Part shown: positions 23,701 to 26,700 of the stretch, in pieces
How the letters are laid out: every line of letters begins with the position of its first letter
How positions within the stretch are numbered: the first letter of the stretch is position 1
Assembly: GCF_024713975.1 (NCBI RefSeq)
Contig: NC_091103.1
Location: forward strand, 1,659,501 to 1,723,500
Source of the DNA: Paralichthys olivaceus
Lineage: Eukaryota; Chordata; Actinopteri; Pleuronectiformes; Paralichthyidae
Direction: 5' to 3'
DNA: 64,000 bases
The notes under the pieces: model-generated
What the model was told of the DNA's origin: nothing
Databases searched by the model: none
The model's input: only the letters and a program-made list of their open reading frames with translations
Position numbers and translations under genes: made by a program

Positions 23701-26700
23701 GAGCTGCATCAGAGGCAGCAAGAAGAGGAGAGGCGGAGGCGAGAGCTGCAGGAGGTGCAGAGGCATGTGCAGGAGCAGAGGGAGGTGGTAGAGCTGCATC
23801 AGAGGCAGCAAGAAGAGGAGCGGCGGAGGCGAGAGCTGCAGGAGGTGCAGAGACGCTTGCAGGAGCAGAGGGAGGCAGTAAAGCTGCAGCAAGAAGAGGA
23901 GAGGCAGAGACGTGAAGATGAGATGGAGTTCAAGGCTTTGATTCATTCTGATGCACAAGTGAGGAAAAGTTGTGCTTTGAGTTTATTGTTCAGAACTTTG
24001 TATAAACATCAGTGTGAAGTAAAGACGCTTGTTCTCCTTTGTTTCTCAAAAGTTCTTTAAAAACAACTTTCCTGTTCTGATGTGTTTTCTCCCCCACAGC
24101 CAGTTTCAGACGCTCCCAGTGAAGAGTCCGTTTCAGAGAACACGGGTCAGACTCGTCTCAGATTACTTGCGTTCCTGCTGAGGGCGATAGAGGAGTCTAA
24201 CGGAGGAACATTATCACACCTCCAAGACCCGCAAAACAAAGAGGCTTCCCCTCACTCACCACCGTGTGGCAGTGGTGAGTCAGTTTTGACACAATTTATT
24301 AAATCATTTTCCACTTTACTCCTTCCACCTTCTCGTTTTTTCAATTTGTGATTGTATAGAATTACACATTTACTAATAAACTCTTAATGCCCCAGTTGCA
24401 TTAAAATGCAATACTCTAATTCTGCATCAGTGTTTAAATTCATTATAAAATGCTTTTTTTTTTTTATTAAGATCCCATCGCTCAGACCAGTGTTCCTGCT
24501 CCAGCGTCCGTCCTCCTGCCACAACTCCTCCCTCCTCCTGTTCGAGCGGCGAAGCCCCCAGTGACCCGCATCAGACTGGGAATCATGGAGGCGACTGAAC
24601 AACACGAGCTCAGTGCAATTCAAGAGGTGGAGACGCCCTTCAACACCAGCCACGTCACAGGTCGGCCCAGCCCCAGAAAAAAATCTTAAAGTTCTGTTTT
24701 CATCACATCGAGTATGAGCTGATTTAATGTTTGTTGTTCCTCCAGGCCCAGAGAAGAACCTGAAGGTTCCATCACACACTGTAAACTGGGATCTGCAGGA
24801 CGAATCAGATTGGTCTGTCGTGTCTGACAGAACTCTGGAGACGCCCTCTGTGTCCAGCAGCGGGAAACGGACAGATGACAGACAGAGCAGCTTTGGGACA
24901 AACTCAAAGACATCCAGCCATCACATCTGGAGAGAGAGACTGCTGACCGGAGCAGTAACATCTCCAGAATCTTCAGAGTCTGGTACGTAGAGGTGAAGGA
25001 GTACAGGCGAGGAGGATCAGGCTTAGGTTAGTGTCTTGTGAAATTCAAACATTTTCACTGAAACCTTGTTTTTTCAGATTCGGCCCTGAGAATAATCTCG
25101 CCTCCTTCGTCCGACTCTGGGAGAGGAGCCGACTTCTCTGGTGCTGCAGCCACAAGCTACAGATCCTTCAGAGAGGTAACCAGAGCAACTGAGGCTGAAC
25201 AGCTCTTAGTGCTCGTTCTGTCCTTTGGAACGAGTCACTGATGTTGTGGGGAAAATCTGCAGCAACGACTGATGAGAAAGTTAGAGGTGAAGGAACAGTT
25301 CAGTCAATATGCAGTGAATCAGCGTCTGTCTGCTCAGTTAGAAACCTTCTGTTTCTCTTCTGACGTGCAGTTGATCTATGAGTTTGATTAACAATAGTTC
25401 TAATTGACATGAATTTCACTGCATATCGTCTCTGTGTCTTTTATCTAAAAGTCCTCTGAGGTTCACACGTGGATCGATGATGAAATTTAGCCAAATCTGA
25501 AGCTTTGGCAGGATCTGCTGCCTCGGCCTCTGATTATGCTTGAGAAGCTTTTTTCTCTTGTGTGTGTGGCGTCAAAGTCAGGGTGTGATGTCTTTGTGTG
25601 TTTGTTCTGAGCAATGATGTGAAATTACTGAACCCAAAGTGTATTTAATTAAAATACATTTCATGATGGTTTCTACACTTGAGCTGAGCTCGGTGTGTGT
25701 GTGTGTGTGTGTGTGTGTGTGTGTGTGTGTGTGTGTGTGTGTGTGTGTGTGTGTGTGTGTGTGTGTGTGTGTGTGTGTGTGTGTGTGTGTGTGTTTCTTC
25801 TGAGCAATGATGTAAGAATTTCTGAACCTGAAAAGTATTTCATCAAAATACATTTCCTGATGGTTTCTACACTTGAACTGAGCTCAGCGAGAACGTTAAG
25901 ACGTCGGAAAGTAAACAATGTCAAATAAAAATGACCTGTGTGTGTCAGTCTCCTCTCAGGCCTCCTGATCCTGACTGCCTCTCCTCCACCACCATCTCCA
26001 CCGGCAGCTACATCACCACTGACGCTGAGCAAAACGTAAACACTGGTGAGGAGTGTGTCATTTAGCTCACGGGGCGTTACCCAGACTCCACCCCTCCACT
26101 GAATGCTTCAGACAGTTTCCTGTCGTTCTGAACGCATCTTTACTGCAGCGGAGCACAGGATCAGTGTTAGAGCCCGAATCATTCTCCTCTTCTCTTCTTC
26201 AGATAAATCCCCACCTGACACACTTTGTGAGGAACAAGGGGCTGATGTTCTCGACGTCTCTTCTCCGTCCAGTCAACTCTCCTTCATTAAGGACACGTCA
26301 GCTGCACATCGTCATGGTGCCGCCGTGCAATCTCTGTTTAACGACAGCAGCATTCAGCGCATCATAGACCGATACACGAGGGAGCTCGACTTCTCCCTCA
26401 GCACCGCTGGGAGAACGACAGGTAGATAGGTAGTCGTGCTTCAGTTTAAGAAGGCGTCTTTCACTCGTCAGTTTATATCATGAGTCTTTTTTCCCTCCTC
26501 AGACAGTGAAGCCTCGTATGTGGACAAGCCCAGATCTGTGGTTGAAGCCTCAGAGTCGAGAGTGGAGGGCGAAGACTCTGCAGGTCGTCAGACTCTTCCC
26601 ACGGGGACTCGAACCCAGAGTGACCTGGTCAGTGACTCACAAACCACTTTACCCCGTTAACAAGAACAGGATTTTAACTCAAGTCAGCTTATCTTTTTTT

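Follow-up and report, generated by a model that had tools for sequence, protein, structure and literature searches.

Three box C/D modules are present in an intron of the fish cep295 gene, and this locus raises the question of which RNA they belong to, which nucleotides it may guide, and why one of its domains is present twice. The reference is human SCARNA9, or mgU2-19/30, which is reported to consist of two C/D domains separated by a spacer of 175 nt and to reside as a full-length RNA in Cajal bodies; it is partly cut to mgU2-19 and mgU2-30, both nucleolar (PMC4041459). The earlier note on this DNA had proposed that the intron carries the fish ortholog of this RNA with a duplicated Am30 domain. 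The whole reading best explains the data and is very probably correct: the cep295 intron would code for a fish SCARNA9 made of three modules, with the Am30 domain doubled, which would guide the modification of U2 G19 and A30. What is new is the presence of a second Am30 domain, which makes this a modest variant of a known RNA; the RNA, its targets, the host gene and the GU-rich spacer are already known. Among the titles and first lines of abstracts listed from the open-licence literature, none names a three-module SCARNA9 or a doubled Am30 domain, and novelty in print is not claimed.

Organization of the Locus

The features discussed below are given as positions in the window, which is the whole stretch of 64,000 nucleotides that was analyzed; module assignments follow the Rfam models named and the pairing with U2.

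25176..25948, plus strand: host intron of cep295, phase 0, GT...AG, 773 bases
25472..25545, plus strand: module 1 (mgU2-19 domain), Rfam snoU2_19, fifth base opposite U2 G19
25477-25483, 25487-25495 and 25497-25500, plus strand: module 1 C box (ATGATGA), guide and D' box (CTGA)
25530-25536 and 25540-25543, plus strand: rear of module 1, C'-like CTGATTA and D-like TTGA
25546..25606, plus strand: UG-rich spacer from module 1 to module 2, with TTGTGTGTGTGG, GGTGTG and TTTGTGTGTTTG
25607..25693, plus strand: module 2 (first Am30 domain), Rfam snoU2-30, U2 A30
25607-25612/25688-25693, 25614-25620 and 25628-25631, plus strand: module 2 terminal stem, C box and D' box
25641-25657, 25663-25669, 25673-25682 and 25684-25687, plus strand: rear of module 2, apical hairpin, C' box, guide and D box
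25693..25794, plus strand: (GT)51 array, candidate UG-rich Cajal-body signal
25800..25887, plus strand: module 3 (second Am30 domain), Rfam snoU2-30, U2 A30
25800-25805/25882-25887, 25807-25813 and 25822-25825, plus strand: module 3 terminal stem, C box and D' box
25835-25851, 25857-25863, 25867-25876 and 25878-25881, plus strand: rear of module 3, apical hairpin, C' box, guide and D box
25888..25948, plus strand: gap of 61 nt, by coordinates, between the end of module 3 and the 3' splice site

The host gene of the three modules is CEP295. The joined exon stretches matched CEP295 in a search that returned 256 proteins at E values up to 1e-3, from many ray-finned fishes, the top match among the best 120 of these 256 being from the archerfish (Toxotes; E 9.9e-279). 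A tblastn comparison with four fish CEP295 proteins from three species located the upstream exon from 25077/25080 to 25163-25175 and the downstream one from 25919-25946 to 26044-26098, the ends of the matches differing from protein to protein; both flanking exons have open, in-frame translations, and the ends at 25176 and 25948 are consistent with a phase-0 intron. The host gene had thus been named correctly, and the modules lie on its sense strand. Each single fish CEP295 protein gave 13-15 tblastn blocks ahead of the intron, and about 16 coding exons were counted from the blocks and the exon stretches, versus the "intron 17" indicated previously.

A MED17 exon within 15019-15426 on the minus strand (E 9e-36) adjoins cep295 on its upstream side, and additional open stretches up to 16511 are presumably MED17-like; in human, too, MED17 is near CEP295. 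Past the 3' end of cep295, the minus strand contains an enoyl-CoA hydratase-like stretch at 32182-32427 (Pfam ECH_1, E 2.1e-5, under the cut-off). Within the gene, a long exon comprises, at 23300-23900, a coding stretch in which a Glu/Gln/Arg-rich unit (similar to RRELQEVQRHVQEQREVVELHQRQQEEER) is repeated in tandem. Human scaRNA9 is reported to be located in a CEP295 intron (PMC7648615), in agreement with the earlier note, and for a chicken relative, GGgCD75, which concerns U2 A30, a location in intron 23 of its host was predicted (PMC2653536).

The three modules follow each other in the order 19-30-30, all on the sense strand, and inspection of the sequence found every box, guide and stem at the place proposed for it. 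Modules 2 and 3 possess C, D, C' and D' boxes, use the terminal D box for guiding, and are closed by short terminal stems of six pairs each (CTGAGC/GCTCGG and CTGAGC/GCTCAG, respectively). Module 1 displays these features in part: its guide is placed upstream of the D' box, its last box, UUGA, is non-consensus, its stem is weak, and a search for a terminal stem gave no convincing one. Folding energy was not used as support for the modules, as 40, 26 and 74 of 200 shuffles folded equally well or better than modules 1, 2 and 3, respectively, none of which is clearly separated from the shuffled sequences.

Guide Sequences and Predicted U2 Targets

The targets assigned to the modules held upon comparison with U2 from the same genome. 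The module 1 guide, TTAGCCAAA, forms 9 nt of unbroken Watson-Crick pairing with U2 around G19, and CTACACTTGA, shared by modules 2 and 3, forms 10 nt around A30; the D-plus-five rule leads to G19 in module 1 and to A30 in both modules 2 and 3. The base adjoining CTGA is unpaired in every module, being T, G and A in modules 1, 2 and 3, respectively.

The U2 reference (positions 1-71) was checked against U2 genes of the same genome, where scoring 46 of the 27,237 first-look candidates gave 46 matches, every one above the cut-off. The best of them, a single gene on C23 (L004), is identical to the 71-base reference, and 11 array genes (L005-L015) differ from it across these bases at position 67 only; both target sites are therefore present in 12 of the 12 genes compared, among the 46 listed. 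Forty-four of the 46 listed U2 matches are contained in an array near the start of C12 (G000:C12:928-160181), many of them at a spacing of 1,097 bases, and L005 diverges more strongly from L004 from position 72 onward.

All CTGA boxes of the window were considered as possible guide anchors, the threshold being a run of 9 or more Watson-Crick pairs with U2 1-71 that includes the fifth base according to the D-plus-five rule. Three of the 525 plus-strand boxes passed, all within the cep295 intron, at 25497 (G19), 25684 (A30) and 25878 (A30), as did one of the 439 minus-strand boxes, at 38344 (U2 position 58). A rescan with L004 over about 190 positions returned the same three boxes and one chance match at 858 (position 86).

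Covariance Models

The Rfam comparison, which had been proposed in the earlier note as a check, gave matches to both families of SCARNA9 domains, every score being below its cut-off. In a 1.4-kb stretch, snoU2-30 (RF00493, cut-off 60) matched module 3 with 47.5 bits (E 4e-8) and module 2 with 44.7 bits (E 2.2e-7), and snoU2_19 (RF00494, cut-off 39) matched module 1 with 28.4 bits (E 0.14). Since no module attains the gathering score of its family, scanning the window with the Rfam defaults yields no match. When the entire 64 kb were scanned by E value, snoU2-30 was found twice (E 1.8e-6 and 1e-5), and snoU2_19 was absent from the list at E up to 0.5. These scores are treated here as divergence from the seed sequences, and not as a defining failure. 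Together with the CEP295 host and the pairing of both guides with U2 of the same genome, the family matches support the orthology to SCARNA9.

Other matches were also considered. The SNORD36 model aligned with module 3 only, at 25802-25886 (27.5 bits, cut-off 30, E 0.08), module 2 not being listed; this is possibly a drifted D' region that resembles an rRNA guide, and more likely a chance match, and a second guide at the D' box of module 3 was not accepted. Sub-threshold SCARNA7 matches at 7708-7845 and 54235-54391 were rejected as GT-repeat artefacts because of their overlap with GT arrays.

One RNA or Two

Intronic C/D snoRNAs are reported to have an optimal distance of about 70 nt from the 3' splice site (PMC8178906). 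In the cep295 intron, this distance is 61 nt for the end of module 3, 67 nt for its D box and 255 nt for the end of module 2. Modules 1 and 2 being far from the optimum, a single RNA is favored, whose 3' end would be set by module 3. According to this model, once the intron is spliced and debranched, C/D proteins would assemble on the three modules. The 3' end would be protected by module 3, whose spacing to the 3' splice site is close to the usual one, and the resulting RNA would be about 420 nt long. Fibrillarin would be brought to U2 G19 by module 1 and to U2 A30 by both of the other modules.

The localization of this RNA may depend on its UG tracts, which occur at 25546-25606 and 25693-25794 on the sense strand, one ahead of each Am30 module; the earlier note mentions neither these tracts nor the spacing to the splice site. 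GU-rich spacers are described in vertebrate mgU2-19/30, and WDR79 was credited with the Cajal-body targeting of two related RNAs (PMC4041459). TDP-43 has been reported to bind UG-rich C/D scaRNAs, including scaRNA9, and to retain them in Cajal bodies, WDR79 being dispensable (PMC6412121). Thus, the UG tracts might retain the fish RNA in Cajal bodies via TDP-43 or WDR79. The window contains seven perfect GT/AC arrays of at least eight units, six of which read GT/TG on the plus strand; GT arrays being so frequent, the UG tracts fit the Cajal-body model without proving it. The cep295 locus also lends itself, as a natural case, to testing whether UG tracts direct RNAs to Cajal bodies.

Alternatively, the intron might produce two RNAs, a canonical two-domain SCARNA9 formed by modules 1 and 2 and an independent mgU2-30 RNA corresponding to module 3, the split occurring in the UG-rich spacer. 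The six-pair terminal stem on each of modules 2 and 3 would suit this arrangement, as would three reports on the human RNA, i.e. its partial conversion to monomers by removal of the spacer (PMC4041459), the in vitro preference of coilin for the inter-domain region, where the GU repeat lies (PMC4395269), and the possible release of mgU2-30 by Drosha/DGCR8 (PMC7648615). However, only module 3 is near the 3' splice site, which makes it the better candidate for the 3' anchor of a single long RNA, and in human the full-length RNA is reported to persist beside the monomers (PMC4041459); two separate RNAs are accordingly a possibility that we regard as rather unlikely. In the single-RNA model, modules 2 and 3, with their terminal stems, may also be set free individually to act as guides in the nucleolus, like human mgU2-30.

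Duplication of the Am30 Domain

Modules 2 and 3 are tandem duplicates. Together with their upstream edges they are identical at 82 of 94 ungapped positions, with 12 substitutions and one gap in 95 columns, and have the same guide and C, D and D' boxes. In the 588-Mb genome, they are the only two places listed for RF00493 (68 of 201,238 first-look candidates were scored), no third copy being among them; the duplication that had been claimed is confirmed. Each Am30 module is preceded by a UG tract ending in TGTGTGTTTSTTCTGAGC, so that the spacer is the probable starting point of the duplicated unit, which may have originated by recombination within the UG repeats. Outside the labelled elements the Jukes-Cantor distance between the two copies is 0.25, from which an age of 16 to 63 million years can be guessed if rates of 8e-9 to 2e-9 per site per year are assumed.

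The 12 differences in 94 aligned positions and the gap, along with the presence of one A30 guide in the known human RNA, could also mean that a single Am30 module works and that the other is a decaying duplicate retained by chance. This is unlikely, as the guide and the C, D and D' boxes are the same in both copies, and boxes, guide and terminal stem taken together are identical at 45 of 47 positions, versus 37 of 47 elsewhere (Fisher p 0.0135, for a small sample with element labels assigned after viewing the alignment). The only changes in labelled elements concern the first base of the C' box and one stem base, A to G opposite U, which still pairs as U-G instead of U-A.

The doubling might also be ascribed to the assembly, with two haplotypes joined at a microsatellite, the long GT array between the copies being a site where assemblies are prone to fail. 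Yet the divergence of the copies, 12 substitutions plus one indel over 95 columns, exceeds the usual allelic difference, and no repetition was seen of sequence outside the duplicated unit; an artefact of this kind is thus very improbable.

Guide-Like Sequences Elsewhere

Exact TCTACACTTGANCTGA occurs in the genome in modules 2 and 3 and at two other places, L016 and L017; Rfam lists nothing for either of these at E up to 1. A C-like motif is absent from the region 35-160 bases upstream at L016, and L017 shows CTGATGT 89 bases upstream and a stem of three pairs, as compared to the six of modules 2 and 3; both are taken as chance matches, less strictly so for L017. The 20-base Am30 pattern had no match in viral contigs and a single one in genome contigs, L001, a bacterial MAG contig, with CTGATGT 96 bases upstream of CTGA; it was rejected as a relative, since tRNA alone reaches an Rfam cut-off there and the best terminal stem consists of one pair. 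The occurrences of TCTACACTTGANCTGA at these two places of the genome and at the one in the bacterial contig indicate that a single guide-plus-box can arise by chance. In comparison, 200 shuffles of the whole window gave on average 0.5 guide matches per strand, with at least two in 18 of the 200 and a total of five on U2 position 19 or 30.

That the modules resemble SCARNA9 by chance, or are a relic without function in an intron rich in repeats, as their Rfam scores below the cut-offs and the TCTACACTTGANCTGA matches elsewhere might suggest, is nevertheless extremely improbable, given three guides with boxes in the expected order and host gene, six-pair stems on two modules, and the finding that, among 5000 dinucleotide-shuffled introns, just 16 contain even one guide, versus three in the real one, in line with the low odds of coincidence argued at first.

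Possible Role of the Am30 Guides

The earlier note had also attributed to SCARNA9 the guiding of both Gm19 and Am30. For Gm19 this agrees with the clear decrease reported upon knock-down of scaRNA9 in human cells; Am30 decreased only marginally in the same study, whose authors propose other scaRNAs as Am30 guides (PMC6412121). Because of this marginal effect, the evidence for a role at A30 consists of complementarity and the table of a review (PMC7960923).

It may tentatively be proposed that both Am30 guides, each with its own UG tract, are under selection in a fish lineage to raise or secure U2 Am30, which is the METTL4 substrate for m6Am30, and that the copies split between Cajal-body and nucleolar pools; we would give this less than even chances. 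If the RF00493 count given above holds, with no listed copy outside the intron among the candidates scored, and the guides are intact, the fish would be suited to testing SCARNA9 as an Am30 guide, and also whether dosage matters.

Comparison with Known Systems

Similarly to human SCARNA9, the fish locus is placed in a CEP295 intron and presents a 19-domain, a GU-rich spacer and a 30-domain, with guides for U2 G19 and A30. Unlike the human RNA, which is reported to have two modules, it has three, and an additional UG tract, (GT)51; its module 1 ends in UUGA and not CUGA, and modules 1 and 2 are about 61 nt apart, as compared to the 175 nt of the human spacer (PMC4041459). Having three domains in the order 19-30-30, rather than exactly two, it represents a variant and not the standard form of SCARNA9.

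Each of the three modules can be aligned over its full length with the RF00493 or RF00494 model and, as in these models, the 19 guide lies ahead of the first CUGA and the 30 guide ahead of the last; the fish sequences depart from the norm of the two families in their scores, which are under the gathering cut-offs, and in the occurrence of two RF00493 copies in a single intron. Duplication in cis, by recombination within the host gene, is described as usual for C/D snoRNA families, the copies being mostly found in different introns (PMC8178906); the fish copies, instead, share one intron and are probably part of one multi-domain scaRNA.
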